From Crocinitomicaceae bacterium (lineage in GTDB: Bacteria > Bacteroidota > Bacteroidia > Flavobacteriales_D > Sanyastnellaceae), in the NCBI GenBank assembly GCA_002690915.1, contig NZGF01000048.1, forward strand, positions 1 through 32,478: DNA of 32,478 nt. The letters run 5' to 3'. Positions within the stretch are counted from its first letter, which is position 1, and every line of letters starts with the position of its first letter. A program made the position numbers and the translations under genes. The notes beneath the pieces were generated by a model. That model saw only the letters and a program-made list of their open reading frames with translations. It made no database searches and was not told the origin of the DNA. Shown here piece after piece: positions 16,627 through 27,010 of this stretch.

Positions 16627-17349
16627 ATGGAACTTCCGTGGAAAATGACCTTAATCTCAATGGTCGTGTGGCTTACAGGAACCGCATTCGTTGTCGCCCA
16701 GTCGGATTGCCCTGGCATGACGTGGGACGAATTGAAAGGCAATGTCAATCCCGCTAGCCACCCTCAATTCGCCTTGATACCGGACCACCTCACATCCAAA
16801 ACAGAAATTTACCTTCGAACAGAGGCCTTGGAGGCCCTAAAAGCCATGGCCGAGGCCGCACGGGTCGAAGGCATCAGTCTTCAGGTGGTGTCCGCGATGC
16901 GCACTTGGAACCATCAACGGCGCATCTGGAACGGGAAGTGGACCAGTCCCCGGTTCATGGGATTCACTGGCTCTTCCAGAGCCACAGAAATTCTTCGCTA
17001 CAGTTCAATGCCAGGATCTTCTCGCCATCATTGGGGAACCGATGTGGATTTGAACGCCTTGGAAAACAATTTTTTTGAAAGCGGCCAGGGTGCAGCGATT
17101 TATGGCTGGCTTATGGAAAACGCGTACAAATATGGGTTTGTTCAGGTGTACGGAGATATGACCAACGGGCGAACGGGGTACCAAGAAGAGAAATGGCACT
17201 GGTCGTATTGGCCATTGGCCGAGCGCTTCCTTCGTTGTTACCTCGACCTATGCCCAGACGAAGCATTCACGGGGTTTGATGGCGCCAAATACGGAGACAC
17301 CCTTCGCATCATCGATCGCTACGTGCAAGGGGTCGATGGCCCTCATTAA
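16627..17349 (+). CDS. D-alanyl-D-alanine carboxypeptidase, M15 (VanY/DdcY type)
   Basis: I choose the ATG at 16627 (MELPWKMTLISMVV) because it gives a normal signal peptide with cleavage after FVVA (residue 24); the frame is open to an earlier ATG at 16600. The M15 zinc motif SxHxxGxxxD is present as SSRHHWGTDVD (His134, Asp141), and ExWH is present as EKWH (Glu188 as catalytic base, His191 as the third ligand). RTWNHQRRIWNGKW is the usual substrate-side region. These enzymes remove the terminal D-Ala of peptidoglycan stem peptides in the periplasm. Length (240) is typical. The 3' end overlaps the convergent DUF3825-like gene by 41 nt. Confidence 0.9.
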   Translation: MELPWKMTLISMVVWLTGTAFVVAQSDCPGMTWDELKGNVNPASHPQFALIPDHLTSKTEIYLRTEALEALKAMAEAARVEGISLQVVSAMRTWNHQRRIWNGKWTSPRFMGFTGSSRATEILRYSSMPGSSRHHWGTDVDLNALENNFFESGQGAAIYGWLMENAYKYGFVQVYGDMTNGRTGYQEEKWHWSYWPLAERFLRCYLDLCPDEAFTGFDGAKYGDTLRIIDRYVQGVDGPH

Positions 17350-18229
17350 CACGTTTGGAACGCACTTGATTCCCCTCGACCAACCACGACGCCTCAGGAC
17401 GAGCGATCAGGCGGGCATTATTATAGGCCATTTCCATGGTGAGTAGATTGATTCCTACGTAATATTCTTTTTGCGCGTCCCATTTCACAGCTAACACCAC
17501 GTTGGTGTCTCGCTGGCGCACCTGCAAGGGAAGCATCAAAGCAACGCATTTACCCTTGGCGTGCCATGCAGGCACGGCGAGTTTGTAGTCCATATGGAGC
17601 AGGTCCAATGCGCGGTCCAATGCAGCTTCGAACCATTGGACCAAAAGGTCCATGCCTTCATCGTCCCTGAGTCGCCGTGCAGCTTCTTCCAAGCAATCCA
17701 TGTAGGCATCCTTTCCTACCTCACGTAAATCCGGTAACAAAATCCGGTCCTCCGTGGCATCGTGTATCAACTGGCGCGGGATACGACTTACATTTTCTTC
17801 TAACAGGCCCAGCCAAGCACATTCTGGCAACCCGGACTGTGGAGCGTAAAAAGCCTGCTCAGCTCGCGTGATGAAGCGCGGACGGACCGGAAGCTCATCG
17901 TACCGTTGAAGAATATCTCCTAGACCTAAACCGTCGGAGGTGCTGAACCCTCTGAAAAACCAATCTTGGGCGTCGTCCCTTTCATTGGGAACGAAAACCG
18001 CATAGATGTCCTGATTACTGCGGGTGAGCAAGCCGGTGTGAAATACGGCCGACTGTCCATCTGGATGAATGCTCAAAAGGCCATCTTCAATAACCTTATC
18101 AAACATGTGGTTGAAGTAGCTTCTCAGCATCCGACCTCCCTTGCCCCAGTGTTCATTGGCGGCCAGGGCTTTAAGACGGTCAAGTGGTTCCGGATAATTG
18201 GGGACAAAGGCAAAGTCAAATAAACGCAT
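17309..18229 (-). CDS. DUF3825-like protein
   Basis: The start is taken at 18229 (MRLFDFAFVPNYPEPL); an in-frame ATG lies 12 nt upstream at 18241. The sequence pattern LFDFAFVP near the N-terminus, a LLSIHPDGQSAVFHTGLL segment, YAVFVPNE and WFFRGF resemble the DUF3825 family, which I recall from bacteria and archaea and sometimes beside RNA-binding modules. The C-terminal half has ALMLPLQVR and VVLAVKWDAQKEYYVGINLLTMEMAYNNARLIARPEASWL. There is no signal peptide or membrane segment, so it should be cytoplasmic. Its function is unknown. The last 41 nt overlap the end of the carboxypeptidase gene on the other strand. Confidence 0.65.
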   Translation of the reverse strand: MRLFDFAFVPNYPEPLDRLKALAANEHWGKGGRMLRSYFNHMFDKVIEDGLLSIHPDGQSAVFHTGLLTRSNQDIYAVFVPNERDDAQDWFFRGFSTSDGLGLGDILQRYDELPVRPRFITRAEQAFYAPQSGLPECAWLGLLEENVSRIPRQLIHDATEDRILLPDLREVGKDAYMDCLEEAARRLRDDEGMDLLVQWFEAALDRALDLLHMDYKLAVPAWHAKGKCVALMLPLQVRQRDTNVVLAVKWDAQKEYYVGINLLTMEMAYNNARLIARPEASWLVEGNQVRSKRVNEGHRPLARSDR

Positions 18230-18325
18230 ACACCTAATCATTCAGTCAGTGCTCAGGAATCAAAAATGTGGCGGAACACATCAACGTCGAACATAAAATA
18301 TTGAAGACTAATATACGCTCTAAGT

Positions 18326-20965: not shown

Positions 20966-21040
20966 GTTCTTGCAACAAGACCGAAATCGAGAATGTTCAA
21001 GAGGGAATCAGTCTTCCGATTGGACCCAAAATCCCTGTAA

Positions 21041-21172
21041 CTACTCTTCGAATGGCATGGCAAAGTCAATGCCTTTCACTACGCTTGCCACCACCTTAAT
21101 GTTGACTGCACCCTTGTCCTCGCCGAAAGCTGTTCGAAAACGTTCTGAAGGACCGAGCCTTAGATTAGTTTG
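21041..21172 (-). pseudogene. Possible coding remnant, no start codon
   Basis: Downstream of the giant protein's stop, another minus frame reads 43 sense codons to TAG, including SERFRTAFGEDKG and VVKGIDFAMPFEE. The composition is very protein-like, yet the frame begins right after an in-frame TAG and has no ATG. It could be the tail of a gene whose 5' part was lost, or a frameshift. I recognise no family. Confidence 0.3.
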
Positions 21173-24100
21173 CTAACTGTCCAACCATTGGATTGGATTT
21201 AATCAACTCATCCAAAATGGCCTTTTCCGTCTTCGCGTAGATTTGCTTTCGCTCTTCTGGGGTCGTTCGCATCGAATTGATAACACTCGGCGGCAATCCC
21301 AAATCCCGCAGTTCATCAAGGAAGACCAATTCGTGCTTGGTGAAAACTTTGTTGAGGTTTTCGTGATGGCAAGCAATCTTAGTAATGGAGTAGCATATTT
21401 GCGCAAACGCCTCCGCGTAGCCAGCCGGCATCCCAACGTTATGTGCGGGATTGTATCGCGTAGCGCCTGAAGCGGCCGCGTCGGCCGCTTGATTGGCTGC
21501 GGTTTCAAGCGACTCGATGAACTGGTTGATGCGGATTTGCTTTTGCTCATCGGTGACATTGGATTGGATGCGAATCAACTTTTCAACCTGTTCTTGAACC
21601 AGCGCGTTCAATGCTTCAATGTCTTGGACCGGTGCCGTTTGAACCGCTGCGAGCGATTGTGAAGGTGCGGTACCATTGGACGCAGGCACCGTTACCTTCT
21701 CGCCTTTAGTGGTGCCCGTGTTGGTTCCACCTTTGGTCAGGCTGTTGGGCAACGAAGCCTCCCGCCGTGCATTCTTCGCACGCTTGCGAGCTTTTGAGGC
21801 ATTCGAATTGGGTAGGTTTTCTGCAAGCGTTTCCATGAGGCGCGCTTCCATCTGCAAGGCGAGTTCCTCCATTCGCTGATCGATGCTTTCAACCACTTTG
21901 CGCATGGTATTGTCATCCAAGCCTATCGAACAATTGACAATGTTCACGACTTCACTCGTGCCTGATTCCCATGCCACAGCAATGACATCTGGCAGCATCC
22001 ATAACTCGATTTCATCGGGATGGATTGCAATGCCATGCCCATCGTGTTCACCTGATGGTACGATGTAATCACCTTCTTTTACCGGGCCAATGATGCGGAT
22101 CGGCACCTGGCCCAAGAAGGCAACTTTCTCGTAGCGCTCTTTATCAGTCTCTTTCGGTCGGTTACCGAGGATTATGGGGTTGGAAGAAATGACGAGAATA
22201 TGATCCACGTCTGAGGTACGCTTGGATATTTGTCCTCGGCGCACGCCGACAATTTCACCCGGCAAGAATCGCTCCCGGGATTCCTCCCTCAGCAGCCATT
22301 CCGCATAGTCGGCACCTTCAGCGTTGAATACCACACTCGAGTTGTTCTGGTAGTACGTCAAGTAGGCTGCTAAATCCTGCCTGGCCTCGTCAAAGGCTTG
22401 AACTGTCTCCACGGCTACAGCAGTTTCAATGGTTGCTTCAACCGCTGCTTTACCTGCGCCGACCCCCTCGGCAACTCCCTCGGCCACATCGGAGTCTGTG
22501 AGTCCCGCTCCAGGGACTACAGAAGCAATGCCGTTGGCAACTTTCACAGCCGCCTCAGCGATCAATCTAGCCGCTGTGCGGACCTGATCTTTCATATCGA
22601 TGGTCGCCTGCTTCAAGGCCAGCGTTTTGTTCTTAAGTTCTTGCAAGTATTGGATATAGTTAGCCCCCTCGTATGGCGTTTGGCCCTCAAACGCAGCCAA
22701 CGAATTGCCTTGACCGTCGGCAAATTCGATAAAATTATTGTCCGTGGTGGGGTTGCTCGGGGCGAGCTGTATTTTAATACCATGCTCATTATCGGTGTTA
22801 CCCGTCTGATCAATGACCAAGGCAAACGCGTTGCCTGGGTTGGATGCGTTATTTCCAATCAACACGTCCTTCGCTTTGGTCACCAGTCGATCGTGGTGGA
22901 AGGTAGCCGGACCGTATGAATGGAAATGGACATTGGGCTGTGATGCTACCCCAACCGAGACCGTGTTTTTAAAGTTGGTGACACCGTTTTGATCCAACGT
23001 CCCTTGCATTTGCACATTTCCGATGCCGTCCACCGAGAATTGCGTTGCACCATGCTTAACCATCACAATGGAATCGCGCACCTCGAGCTTGTTGTCCACC
23101 CGAACCACCTTATGTACTTCCAGCGAATCGCCTATGACAGCAGATTTGTTCACTTTGATGTCTTGCAGTGTAGCAAATTCCCTGACCCAAAGGGAATCCG
23201 ACTCCATCCTTCCCTCACTGTCCAAAAATACCTTCTGATCGCCCACAGTAATGCGCTGCGCAACATTCAAAGAATCATTGAAAGTGACATTTTTTTGAAC
23301 CAAAAGCGTACTATCTACCCTGACATTTCCGCCTACGTTCAAATCTCCTGACATGCCCAGCGTTGTGGTTTCGACGCCGCCGTCTGAAAAGGTTGTACCC
23401 AATATGCGCAACCACCCTTGGATGTGCACATTGGTTTTGAATTCCACACTATCGTCCCGGAAATCCACTTTACCTATGTCGGCAACTTTGCCGTTGGTAC
23501 CGAGCACCGTGAGCGTTCCATTGCTTACGATGGACTTCTCAATCGTCAAGCTATCACTGTACCCACCTAAACTTCCATCGTCCAAATTACGCGTCATACG
23601 CGAATGCAACGTATCGATTTGACGCGCCCACTCCTCAAGCTTGAACGGATCGGTTTCAAGGATGCGCTTGGAGCCTTCTTGCCGTATGGAAGTAACAGCC
23701 ACAGGGTCTGTTTCAATTTTTTTACCTGGTAAAATGCAGAGGCCTCCCACCATTTCGTAACCCAAGGCGCACGTGCTATCACAGTTGTAGCCCAATGGGG
23801 GGTATACCGGCGTAAAGTCAAAATCCGTGTCGTCACCCGGAGTGTTATCCACACAACTGCACGCCCCATATTCTTCAACCGTCTTGCAGCCACAATCTTC
23901 AACGTCTGGTGTCACCTCCGGGGAGCCTTCAAGAACGCAATCGCCACAACTGTTCTGGACTTCGTTGGCATTAAGGCACGGATCTACGTCATCGCAGATA
24001 TCATCTTCATCGATGTCCGCCGCACAACCACCGCCGCAAATATCGAGGGCATCCAACGTATCACCATTGCAGTTGCACACCGGCGCCACAAATGCAACTA

Positions 24101-25856
24101 CTTGACCTGGAGCCGTGGCAGTGCATTCGTTGCAACTGTTAAGGTAGCGACAATCGGTATCTTGCGCCACGTTGGCATCAATGTTGAAGTTGCAGGCGTC
24201 TGGCAACGTGCATCCCGTAATCTCTAAATCATCGCAAATTCCGTTGCCATTGCCGTCTACTTGTGATTGATCGCACGTGCAATATCCATCTGGAAGGTCT
24301 GTATCGCATCCGCATGCCTTCATTACGTCACAAAGGGAATCATTGGCGACAGGATTTGCATTGGTCGCCGATAAAACATTCGGATCGAATTGCACGGTGG
24401 CCAATGGGTTGAAATTGCAAGCTGTTACATCCATGCACCCTATTTCTTCAGCTGCGTCGCACACACCATTCCCATTGTAATCCGATAGACAGAAAGTAGT
24501 ATCAGTTTGAGCGAGGCAGTTTCCAATGGAATCGATTTTGTGCTTGAAGCAATTGCACCAGTCTAAAGCCTGCACCAATGCAAGTCCCCCTGACCCGTTG
24601 TTCCAATTTCCACTGGGCAGCGCTGTATCCACAGGCAGTGTGTAAGGAATATTGGTGCCGTTCGCATCGGTAAACGTATTTGTCGGCGCACCGGTTTGAT
24701 CTGGATTGTACATCCAATCGCAGCCACAATCGGTATTTTCCCCAGGTGGATAAATGCATGCGTCTTCTTGAAATTCAGTTGCGTTGGAGTTGTAATTACA
24801 GGCCCAACGATCGTTGCACCCCGGAATTTCATTCCAGTTGCAAATTTGCGTTCCCGTTGATGTCGTGTCACCATCCAAGTTCCCATCGACCTCAACGTAA
24901 AATGGGGAGGATTCCCAGCAAGAGTCTGGAGCAATTGGTGCTGTTCCCATTGGTAGGCTGCTCATGGTTACTTCCACTAGATTACTGAATGGCGGGGATA
25001 AAGTAGCATCTGGGATTGGCCGTCGGCGTTTGTCATAATTATTTGCATCATTGAGAGTATCGTATCCTGATGTGACTTTCTGTATCCAGTAATACTTTGT
25101 GGCAGTCGTATCAGCGGTCGTAATTGAATAGGCGAAAGCACCAAAATTGCAAACGTCTTGATTGGAGATTACAATGGGCAAATCGAACGGTAATGTGGCG
25201 TTCGGATTATGGTTAATTGCGGAAGGGTAGCTAGGATCCCCAGACCCGCCTATTTCAAGGGAATCAACAACTTGGTCATTGTTCCCGTCAATATGGACTA
25301 ATTGCTTGTTGACGCAGGACCAAAATTGACTTTCATACTCACAAGCAGATGGTTTCGAGTAATACGGCTCGAAGTTACAAGCCATTGAATCCATGCATCC
25401 GTAACAGTGATATGCACAAGGGCCATTTGTGGTCGCAGGGTAATTATTACCTTCAGGACCCAAAGAATACGGCACAGTACCATTGTAGTTGCAGGCCTCG
25501 GGATCATTACACAGGTCTGTATTGTCCAACACGTAACCCTCGGGCTGCGTGCAAGAGCTCTGGCTGTCGTCCGCATCGCCCAAGCCGTCACTGTCGTCAT
25601 CGGCGTACCACATCGTAGCATACGTGCAAGAACCGTCATCCACATTCGCAGCGGCATCATAATTACAAGCATTGGAATCCATGCAACCTCCAACCACGGC
25701 GTCCTCAGCTGGGTACATTTCGCTGACAGTTGGCACTTCAATCATCTCGCCCACAGATTCAATGAAGTGAACATTGGATATGGCATTCGTGGCGAATGTG
25801 ACTGAAGTCAATCCCAAGCAAACAAGCATTACTTGTGGTATTATAAGTTGGCGCAT
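21165..25856 (-). CDS. Giant secreted protein: Cys/Asp repeats, fiber-like region and Peptidase_G2-like domain
   Basis: The 1563-residue product starts with a signal peptide (MRQLIIPQVMLVCLGLTSVTFA). Residues about 57-720 contain at least six copies of a Cys/Asp-rich repeat of the type GCxDxxACNYxxxA...DxxC (first at 57; others near 113, 150, 346, 473, 547), which likely bind Ca2+. A low-complexity, beta-rich fiber-like region (about 760-1050, with many DSL/V and GN/NV strands) follows, then a helical stretch (about 1060-1140). Around 1180-1285 the sequence GADYAEWLLREE ... FLPGEIVGVRRGQI ... VAFLGQVPIRIIGPVKEGDYIVPSGE matches the Peptidase_G2 self-cleaving module of phage neck appendages. 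A Lys/Arg-rich linker (about 1355-1400) and helices end the protein. There is no T9SS sorting domain at the C-terminus. It is probably a surface appendage or fiber. Confidence 0.88.
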   Translation of the reverse strand: MRQLIIPQVMLVCLGLTSVTFATNAISNVHFIESVGEMIEVPTVSEMYPAEDAVVGGCMDSNACNYDAAANVDDGSCTYATMWYADDDSDGLGDADDSQSSCTQPEGYVLDNTDLCNDPEACNYNGTVPYSLGPEGNNYPATTNGPCAYHCYGCMDSMACNFEPYYSKPSACEYESQFWSCVNKQLVHIDGNNDQVVDSLEIGGSGDPSYPSAINHNPNATLPFDLPIVISNQDVCNFGAFAYSITTADTTATKYYWIQKVTSGYDTLNDANNYDKRRRPIPDATLSPPFSNLVEVTMSSLPMGTAPIAPDSCWESSPFYVEVDGNLDGDTTSTGTQICNWNEIPGCNDRWACNYNSNATEFQEDACIYPPGENTDCGCDWMYNPDQTGAPTNTFTDANGTNIPYTLPVDTALPSGNWNNGSGGLALVQALDWCNCFKHKIDSIGNCLAQTDTTFCLSDYNGNGVCDAAEEIGCMDVTACNFNPLATVQFDPNVLSATNANPVANDSLCDVMKACGCDTDLPDGYCTCDQSQVDGNGNGICDDLEITGCTLPDACNFNIDANVAQDTDCRYLNSCNECTATAPGQVVAFVAPVCNCNGDTLDALDICGGGCAADIDEDDICDDVDPCLNANEVQNSCGDCVLEGSPEVTPDVEDCGCKTVEEYGACSCVDNTPGDDTDFDFTPVYPPLGYNCDSTCALGYEMVGGLCILPGKKIETDPVAVTSIRQEGSKRILETDPFKLEEWARQIDTLHSRMTRNLDDGSLGGYSDSLTIEKSIVSNGTLTVLGTNGKVADIGKVDFRDDSVEFKTNVHIQGWLRILGTTFSDGGVETTTLGMSGDLNVGGNVRVDSTLLVQKNVTFNDSLNVAQRITVGDQKVFLDSEGRMESDSLWVREFATLQDIKVNKSAVIGDSLEVHKVVRVDNKLEVRDSIVMVKHGATQFSVDGIGNVQMQGTLDQNGVTNFKNTVSVGVASQPNVHFHSYGPATFHHDRLVTKAKDVLIGNNASNPGNAFALVIDQTGNTDNEHGIKIQLAPSNPTTDNNFIEFADGQGNSLAAFEGQTPYEGANYIQYLQELKNKTLALKQATIDMKDQVRTAARLIAEAAVKVANGIASVVPGAGLTDSDVAEGVAEGVGAGKAAVEATIETAVAVETVQAFDEARQDLAAYLTYYQNNSSVVFNAEGADYAEWLLREESRERFLPGEIVGVRRGQISKRTSDVDHILVISSNPIILGNRPKETDKERYEKVAFLGQVPIRIIGPVKEGDYIVPSGEHDGHGIAIHPDEIELWMLPDVIAVAWESGTSEVVNIVNCSIGLDDNTMRKVVESIDQRMEELALQMEARLMETLAENLPNSNASKARKRAKNARREASLPNSLTKGGTNTGTTKGEKVTVPASNGTAPSQSLAAVQTAPVQDIEALNALVQEQVEKLIRIQSNVTDEQKQIRINQFIESLETAANQAADAAASGATRYNPAHNVGMPAGYAEAFAQICYSITKIACHHENLNKVFTKHELVFLDELRDLGLPPSVINSMRTTPEERKQIYAKTEKAILDELIKSNPMVGQLAN

Positions 25857-26071
25857 GGTGAATTTTTTTTCGATGAAAATTGTTATTTAGGAGGTAAATT
25901 AATAAAATTCTTCCTTCAAAAGAAATTTGGTCGCCGACTACCCTCATTTTCAACCAAGATGACTTGATCTGATTTATGGAGCTGATACGGATTGAGCAAA
26001 TGAGCATGGCTCCGTAGTGCCTTACTCCAACTGAACAATTGGGCAACTCAAAATCGCAATGTCCCAAACGC
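25857..26071. other. Intergenic region upstream of the giant fiber-like gene
   Basis: About 215 bp of AT-rich sequence between the giant protein start and the terminator of the candidate structured RNA, both on the minus strand. It presumably carries the promoter of the giant protein gene, but no clear TTG/TAnnTTTG pair was found. No gene is apparent. Confidence 0.4.
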
Positions 26072-26118
26072 AAAAAACCGCGCCGAGTTGGAATGTTACT
26101 TCTAACTGCGACGCGGTT
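26072..26118 (-). terminator. Strong intrinsic terminator of the candidate large RNA
   Basis: On the minus strand the arms at 26104-26118 and 26076-26089 pair over about 14 bp with a single bulged C and one G.T pair, closing a 14-nt loop, and six T residues follow immediately (A run at 26072-26077 on the plus strand). There is no T run on the other side, so it works only leftward. Confidence 0.75.
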
Positions 26119-26724
26119 CCTCCGCGGCTTCATCGCGAGCGATGCGGGGGGCTCGGCGAACCGAACGCTTCCCGTTGGGCACACGGTACGCTTGTCATTG
26201 GCTCCTCAATTGCATTCTCAGCAACCCACCTCAGGTGGGACACCTTGGGTTTGCACCCTCGGCCCATGATTTACCGCTTTCAAGCGCTGGATTGGCGGTT
26301 GCCCGCTTCTCCTGAGTCGATGGCTCTGCTTCCTTCCGCTTTGCAACGGATCTTGGCTTTGCTTCGTTCACCAGCGTTTGTGCGTTGCACCGGTCTGCTG
26401 CTCTCTGGTCCTTCTCAGTTCCAGCGAGCTCCCCTGACCACGTGGGAGCTTTCTTGCGAAATCCGCGATGTCGCACGAGTGCTTCACCGTTTCATGAACG
26501 GACACTGGTCTCACGCTTTCCAACTACATCTGGTCCACGCCACCCTTTCGGGCCTTGCCACCATTCTCAGGCGACACGATCACAGCATCTCAACTCAACC
26601 TCGGCACCTTTGTGCCTCGGTGTCTCGAAGAACAGTCAGGTCCGAAGACCTTTCTTCCGCTTTTGTTTCCCTCCTCTAGTGAAGAGTTTCGCTTGACGCT
26701 CCGTGGATGTTCCCATCCGTTGAC
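26072..26724 (-). ncRNA. Candidate large structured non-coding RNA (about 650 nt), unassigned
   Basis: This stretch, between a promoter (26730-26760) and a terminator (26072-26118), is full of short perfect hairpins. Reading the minus strand they are: GGATG/CATCC with GGAA loop (26705-26718), AGGTC/GACCT with TTCG loop (26638-26651), GGCAC/GTGCC (26603-26616), CCC/GGG with GAAA loop (26543-26552), CCGTT/AACGG (26487-26501), AGCTCCC/GGGAGCT (26427-26450), GCGG/CCGC with GCAA loop (26295-26306), GGGT/ACCC with GCAA loop (26247-26258), CCCACC/GGTGGG (26225-26239), TCGG/CCGA with TTCG loop (26153-26164), and CATCG/CGATG (26131-26144). GNRA and UUCG loops appear only on this strand, which fixes the RNA strand. 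The A/G-rich linkers also look RNA-like. I found no RNase P, tmRNA, 6S, SRP or group II intron signatures. Function unknown. Confidence 0.65.
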
Positions 26725-27010
26725 AGTGCCAAATTAAAAGCAAGAAGGAACGCAATGCAATTTCTCGTGTCGAAAGGAATGCACAACCAATCCACAGGCT
26801 TTTTGAACAATTGTTGATATCAGAATACGTCCACCTGCCATCGGAACCCAACGGCCTTAATTCTTTTTCATGAAAGGCCTCAAGCGCCACGCGCATGGAA
26901 CCGTAAGTGGAGCACTGACTCGCGACGACATTTTTCAGTAACTGCAAAAAGGAGAACGAATCAGATGGAACTGGCACGAGAATAACTGGGGGTTTTTCAT
27001 TCACCCACAA
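26636..27010 (-). CDS. Doubtful small ORF upstream of the structured RNA
   Basis: A 124-codon minus frame begins MWVNEKPPVILVPVPSDSF and its first 65 or so codons look protein-like (YGSMRVALEAFHEKELRPLG and SDGRWTYSDIN). The latter part is less convincing and runs across the promoter and first 90 nt of the candidate structured RNA. The gene may be real and shorter than its frame, or a decayed one. I recognise no family. Confidence 0.3.
   Translation of the reverse strand: MWVNEKPPVILVPVPSDSFSFLQLLKNVVASQCSTYGSMRVALEAFHEKELRPLGSDGRWTYSDINNCSKSLWIGCAFLSTREIALRSFLLLIWHCQRMGTSTERQAKLFTRGGKQKRKKGLRT
26730..26760 (-). promoter_or_regulatory. Putative sigma-A promoter of the candidate large RNA
   Basis: On the minus strand TTG (26758-26760) is followed by a 20-nt spacer and TTAATTTG (26730-26737), a 7/8 match to TAnnTTTG. 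The predicted start site is near 26722-26725, just before the first hairpin of the candidate RNA. Confidence 0.5.

Follow-up and report, generated by a model that had tools for sequence, protein, structure and literature searches.

The question raised by this locus is what is encoded on the minus strand at 26724-26072 of the window, that is, of the whole 32,478-nucleotide stretch of DNA that was analysed. The region represents a free-standing gene encoding a structured RNA about 653 nt long (26072..26724, minus strand), the exact start and end of which are predicted. The term "large structured non-coding RNA" is used here on three grounds: compensatory changes in the stems, promoter-like and terminator-like ends, and a lack of any conserved reading frame. 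The gene probably specifies a trans-acting RNA of a class that is not in Rfam, about 650 nt in length and about 827 nt in a sister lineage.

The gene, its ends and its homologues

Directly before the RNA start, the minus strand carries TTG-N20-TTAATTTG (26760-26730), which we take to be a promoter of the Bacteroidota type. It consists of a -33 TTG (26758..26760) and the -7 element TTAATTTG (26730..26737). TTG-N20-nnnnTTTG occurs at an equal position in all six near homologues with a complete 5' end (G007 is cut by a contig end), which bears out the promoter proposed in an earlier note on this DNA. Eleven of 12 homologues have the TTTG at this place to within one base; the exception is G011, in which the site reads CTTG. 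An automatic sigma-70 scan did not flag 26760-26730, the promoter being of another type. The 3' end (26072..26122, minus strand) forms an intrinsic-terminator-like structure, a GC-rich and slightly bulged hairpin followed by six T, in which 99.3% of cells are paired over the seven near homologues (helix 36); this hairpin, too, was not flagged by an automatic terminator scan (26122-26072). The hairpin and T run that the earlier note had described are therefore present, but its figure of 14 bp is only approximate because the hairpin carries a bulge. Measured between the start marker and the last T of the run, the RNA is 653 nt long in the window and in G004, 667 in G016, 646 in G015 and 651 in G011. 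A longer form of 825-828 nt (about 827 nt) is found in G014, G008 and G020.

Homologues were identified in 13 of the 22 genomes of the genus, seven by BLASTN (the window's own genome included) and six by a covariance model of the 5' domain; six of the homologue genomes correspond to metagenome bins. The BLASTN identities were 97% for G019, 92% for G004, 90% for G001, 88% for G013, 82% for G007 and 70% for G016. G007 holds only the 3' part, its 5' half being missing at the contig end, and it was omitted from full-length counts. BLASTN against wider sets gave no further carriers (7 of 40 genomes, and the same seven of 114). A covariance model of the 3' domain, R1, likewise found the same seven only in 399 genomes of the order and 114 of the family, and a single match, the window's own genome, in 395 genomes of the class. 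These R1 negatives outside the genus weigh little, because R1 missed six deep homologues inside it. An exact pattern of the 3' domain matched six contigs among the GTDB 220 genomes, all from Flavobacteriales MAGs.

The six deep homologues came from the model of the 5' domain, R2, which was applied to the 22 genus genomes at E<=1 and gave weak full-length matches in G015 (E 0.0016) and in G011, G014, G008, G020 and G012 (E 0.0097 to 0.048). Each of the six has the AAAG hairpin, the first T-loop-like hairpin and the upstream element described below. The terminal hairpin and T run are also present except in G012, where the 3' end is cut by the contig end. A partial R2 match in G006 (17.8 bits, E 0.57) was rejected, as it overlaps long open frames and has no upstream element (best score -11). 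R1 found nothing in G006 or in the other photolyase neighbourhoods that do not hold the RNA (13 sources). Neither BLAST nor R2 found a homologue in nine of the 22 genus genomes, of which G002, G009 and G018 are at least 90% complete; the RNA is therefore dispensable, lost, or diverged beyond the models in these genomes.

Fold and recurring motifs

The minimum free energy of the window RNA was -247.6, compared with -228.0 +/- 6.5 for 20 shuffles (z -3.0). The opposite strand gave z -2.8, so energy alone cannot choose the strand, and the lesser stability claimed for the opposite strand is only weakly borne out. Substitution patterns favour the minus strand, with a weaker signal retained in the antisense control.

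The consensus fold obtained with RNAalifold contains 21 hairpin loops and 194 pairs. Both sides had changed in 25 of the 194 pairs. Shuffling gave 5.7 +/- 2.1, with none of 500 shuffles reaching 25, and sliding the structure along the alignment gave no more than 8, although this structure was derived from the same sequences it was counted on and leans towards them. In a cross-test, the structure was predicted from one single sequence and its pairs were checked in another, permuted substitutions giving the expectation. From G000, the window's own genome, to G016 (198 pairs), 45 pairs were broken against 58.9 expected (p 0.0004), and 15 had changed on both sides against 7.5 expected (p 0.002). 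The antisense strand of the same two sequences gave 59 broken pairs against 66.5 (p 0.03) and 11 changes on both sides against 6.3 (p 0.03); with the roles of the two sequences exchanged, it gave 15 such changes against 8.1 (p 0.005). There was no antisense pairing signal for G013. The close pairs G000/G001 (p 0.21) and G000/G004 (p 0.49) had no excess of changes on both sides.

The compensatory changes that the earlier note had asked for are seen again in the much more diverged homologues. For example, 7 of the 12 pairs of the AAAG hairpin and the first T-loop-like hairpin had changed on both sides in the alignment that includes the deep homologues, and 93% of cells in these two hairpins are paired, compared with 77% in shuffled and 27-41% in slid controls. 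Neither the second T-loop-like hairpin nor the majority of the 3' stems could be recognised in the deep homologues, so the fold that both size forms share is traced over part of the length. As far as the comparison of sequences can tell, the fold of the minus-strand RNA is strand-specific and under selection.

The chain of hairpins with GNRA and UUCG tetraloops, as first described from the window alone, is recovered in the consensus fold. Its tetraloops in the window are GGAA, GAAA, GAGA, four GCAA and one UUCG, and a second UUCG hairpin is present in the single-sequence fold of the window copy. Most of the GNRA and UNCG loops retain their class despite letter changes (GGAA/GAAA, GAGA/GCAA, GCAA/GTAA, UUCG/UCCG), and one further GCAA loop site reads CTAA in G019. 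The first hairpin on the minus strand, on which all features of the fold lie, is GGATG-GGAA-CATCC (26705..26718). Its loop is GAAA in G016, and its stem is rewritten from GGAUG/CAUCC in the window to GAACG/CGUUC in G015 and GGGUG/CACCC in G011; no counterpart was identified in the form of about 827 nt. A long-range closing helix (helix 2) would pair 26697..26701, as the 5' strand, with 26137..26141, as the 3' strand; this helix is predicted but not proven, because it is nearly invariant.

The AAAG-loop hairpin (26598..26621), with the core GGCAC-AAAG-GTGCC, keeps its loop in 12/12 homologues while the stem is rewritten. The first T-loop-like hairpin (26556..26576), with the loop UGAGAAU at 26563-26569, is found in all 12 homologues reaching that point. 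Its loop reads UGAAAAU in G015, and its stem in the window, GUCGCC/GGUGGC, is replaced by CGCGUC/GACGCG in G011 and by GGCC/GGUC in G014. The second T-loop-like hairpin (26210..26224, loop UGAGAAU at 26214-26220) is present in 7/7 near homologues and has no counterpart in the six deep ones. Both UGAGAAU heptaloops are closed by a helix and fit the T-loop consensus U-GNR-A-NN, as given in the available text of one account (PMC2258182), and the hairpins are thus called T-loop-like by their sequence.

The RNA has further GNRA hairpins. The loop at 26542..26553, GAAA in the window, reads GAAA, GATA, GCAA, GTAA, GCAA and GAGA in six near homologues, the GATA of G019 not being a GNRA loop. The nested hairpin GGA-GAA-GCGG-GCAA-CCGC-CAA-TCC (26289..26312) has GCAA or GTAA in 7/7 near homologues, with likely counterparts in G015 and G011 on a reading by eye. 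The hairpin GGGT-GCAA-ACCC (26242..26263), which has outer GCC/GGT pairs, has two pairs changed on both sides and a loop of GCAA or GTAA. The UNCG hairpin at 26151..26166 has the loop UUCG, which is UCCG in G007 and G016, and two compensated pairs. Lastly, UGGUC (26436..26440) and GACCG (26391..26395) form a candidate pseudoknot of 5 bp that can pair in 7/7 near homologues. A helix of at least 5 pairs arises in 1 of 60 column shuffles, and no change on both sides was found in these seven sequences.

The upstream element, the flanking genes and the competing explanations

A conserved element of 44 bp is found upstream of the promoter. The window copy is TATCAACAATTGTTCAAAAAGCCTGTGGATTGGTTGTGCATTCC (26776..26819, minus strand), and the consensus, TATGAACAATTGTTGAAAACGCCTGTGAATACGGTGTGCATTCC, spans 95 to 52 bp before the RNA start. 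The element starts at -94 or -95 in 12/12 homologues with a complete 5' end. When each clade was left out in turn, it scored 32-55 bits, compared with a best background of 10.6-17.2 bits over 187,400 positions, and no second site above 20 bits was found in the non-viral loci examined. In the deepest comparisons, with the window copy as reference, the element is 66% identical in G015 and 64% in G011, compared with 42% and 44% for the full RNA. In close relatives the element is 80% identical and the RNA 90-92%, so it is not better kept there.

Parts of the element were compared with what we take to be the DnaA box consensus. A perfect box, TTATTCACA, is present in G001 and G004 and one-mismatch boxes in eight other homologues; no DnaA-box-like 9-mer was found in the window copy or in G019. 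The apparent resemblance of parts of the element to DnaA boxes is a lead, not a result. It would fit a more specific account, which is possible but unlikely: that the RNA is a new chromosomal, non-phage class of giant RNA in Bacteroidota, forming an RNA-only or RNA-protein particle, and that a DnaA-box-like array about 95 bp upstream couples its transcription to replication or the cell cycle.

The flanking genes vary among the carriers. A photolyase gene follows the RNA in G001, G004, G013 and G007; the window also has a photolyase gene, separated from the RNA by a 1563-aa gene. A PhoH gene is found 5' of the RNA in G016 and an ammonium-transporter gene 3' of it in both G015 and G011, and G014 and G020 encode PKD/CHU_C proteins next to it. 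The synteny proposed as a check is thus kept for the upstream element and not for the neighbouring genes. A control region that is kept where the neighbours are not speaks for action in trans. The surroundings of the RNA, described earlier as gene-poor, are so only in part, as the 1563-aa frame lies 3' of it and a 1041-aa frame runs off the end of the window.

Several side observations were made on these neighbours. The 1563-aa protein (21165-25856, minus strand) matches no Pfam family, and part of it close to the C-terminus is similar to a frame that precedes the RNA on the 5' side in G004 (35% over 76 aa). In G006 the photolyase is 85% identical to that of the window, and the adjacent gene is an intact one with a trypsin-like domain, with no RNA there. 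A 3'-end remnant of such a gene lies between the photolyase and the 1563-aa gene of the window (21011-21172, minus strand) and matches the intact G006 gene at 51% over 57 aa. In G004, directly after the terminal hairpin, a gene-end remnant (L014, 1666-1761) shares 69% identity over 36 aa with a G006 protein that itself matches HmuY weakly, below the cut-off; this remnant suggests a cassette-like boundary. A DUF3825 protein (PF12873; window 17309-18241, minus strand) recurs in the photolyase neighbourhood at 75-87% identity. Between the RNA and the ammonium-transporter gene, L285 and L286 share a similar short stretch, GGCTTCGGCAATTACCCGA and GGCTCCGGCAATTACCCGA, possibly another leader element. 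The G019 copy lies on a 3.7-kb contig (L013, 3,711 bp) with flanks 95% identical to the window over 2.7 kb, and the photolyase of G019 is only 65% identical to that of the window. A 97% copy together with a 65% photolyase means that this contig may be misbinned or recently transferred.

Such boundaries bear on the alternative that the RNA belongs to a mobile or phage-derived element, be it a cassette RNA, an omega/HEARO-like RNA, or a remnant of a retron or intron. In the carriers, homology ends shortly after the terminal hairpin at the 3' end and shortly outside the upstream element at the 5' end, and the flanks differ. The gene-end remnant abutting the 3' hairpin in G004, the end of a protease gene in the window that is intact in G006, and the 97% copy on the short contig of G019 also fit this explanation. 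However, each carrier genome gives one BLAST match, and no transposase, reverse transcriptase or phage gene was recognised among the flanking proteins tested. Of nine such proteins compared with PHROG, only the 1563-aa protein gave a match, which scored below 22 bits and was to a family of unknown function. Among 50,697 phage records there was no match to the window copy or to two deep copies, and among 72,556 plasmid records none to the window copy. Patterns in IMG/VR gave 142 stretches, none of which scored below E 0.03 against an nhmmer profile, and two other pattern scans gave zero hits. The single hit of a further scan reached 6.2 bits with R2 inside a 177-aa open frame and was rejected. 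A mobile origin is therefore regarded as improbable.

Less probable still is a cis-acting leader or riboswitch of the downstream gene. The RNA does stand where a leader would, ahead of a gene on its own strand in the window and of the photolyase in G001, G004, G013 and G007, and T-loops and GNRA loops are known in riboswitches, according to the available text on that motif (PMC2258182). The RNA nevertheless ends in its own hairpin with a T run, and the downstream gene changes from the 1563-aa gene to photolyase, ammonium transporter or opposite-facing genes.

Known RNAs were searched with Rfam. None of 4227 families matched the region 25900-26900 at E<=10, the whole window had no match at gathering, and six loci with divergent copies gave three implausible matches far below threshold (two lncRNA models and one microRNA model). 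Together with the covariation, this empty result supports the earlier description of a large, ornate-type RNA of no assigned class. Literature searches recognised no publication describing this RNA in the portions of text available. A highly diverged universal RNA, such as RNase P, tmRNA, SRP or 6S RNA, is very hard to reconcile with these results. The large size and the T-loop and GNRA content would suit one, and the window's own genome, which is 85% complete, has no tmRNA above cut-off. Yet the sole RF00010 match of that genome lies elsewhere (a partial match at the start of contig G000:C55, with E 2.8e-23 and short of the gathering score), tmRNA lies above cut-off elsewhere in five carriers (G001, G007, G013, G012, G014), and ARAGORN found no tmRNA in the window. 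The distinction from RNase P and tmRNA drawn from the window alone thus holds.

A protein gene on the opposite strand can be practically dismissed: the 206-aa frame at 26059-26679 (plus strand) is long and has 83-96% amino acid identity in close relatives over 109-206 aa, but it is broken in G016, and the substitutions at codon positions 1/2/3 (3/5/7 in G019, 16/16/8 in G004, 17/22/16 in G001, 25/20/17 in G013, 58/66/58 in G016) have no third-position excess consistent over the five homologues and are explained by stem pairing, in agreement with the earlier finding of no convincing protein.

Possible role and relation to other large RNAs

The favoured explanation, a large trans-acting structured RNA, invites comparison with OLE, ROOL and GOLLD, whose structures have recently been solved as one dimer and two nanocages and whose roles are still open in the account available (PMC12286853). 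By the tests run, the window RNA is not a member of these three families. In the homo-oligomers of OLE, ROOL and GOLLD, kissing loops and A-minor contacts hold the copies together. OLE occurs mostly in Gram-positive Bacillota and forms an RNP, whereas the window RNA occurs in Flavobacteriales and has no OLE match. The partner proteins of OLE are OapA, OapB and OapC. The likeness lies in the size of about 600 nt, the cellular gene and the intricate secondary structure of OLE, which localises to the membrane, as described in the parts available of two reports (PMC9723947, PMC12054373).

ROOL is similarly large (659 nt for env-120) and ornate, and many GOLLD RNAs exceed 800 nt, comparable to the form of about 827 nt; the function of both is not known in the same account of the three structures (PMC12286853). 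However, ROOL occurs in phages and prophages, often near tRNA islands, whereas the window RNA has no nearby tRNA, phage or Rfam match; no tRNA was found in the window, nor in the 11 mostly short homologue loci examined. GOLLD, too, occurs in prophages and phages, and the window RNA has no covariance-model match to it. The RNAs known to contain T-loops (riboswitches, rRNA, RNase P and T-box) share only the loop motif with the window RNA, with no overall homology, and of its two T-loop hairpins the first alone persists in the deep homologues.

By analogy, the window RNA may work like OLE, ROOL and GOLLD. Its most likely role would be that of a trans-acting scaffold, as an RNP or an RNA oligomer, judging from what the available text reports for these three (PMC12286853). 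A regulator binding the 44-bp element would govern transcription, and the RNA would fold around the long-range closing helix into a multi-domain body. The T-loop-like and GNRA hairpins could then serve as docking points for tertiary or intermolecular contacts, and the scaffold would act as an RNA-protein particle, as with OLE, or as a homo-oligomer, as with ROOL and GOLLD.

Few bacterial RNAs of comparable size and complexity have been characterised so far, and those of this rare kind that have been studied well form RNA cages or membrane complexes. An apparently uncatalogued RNA class, carried by a group of marine bacteria from another phylum and unlinked to phages in the tests used here, with two size forms and a strongly conserved upstream element, would provide an independent system for probing the role of such RNAs, as well as natural variants for structure work.
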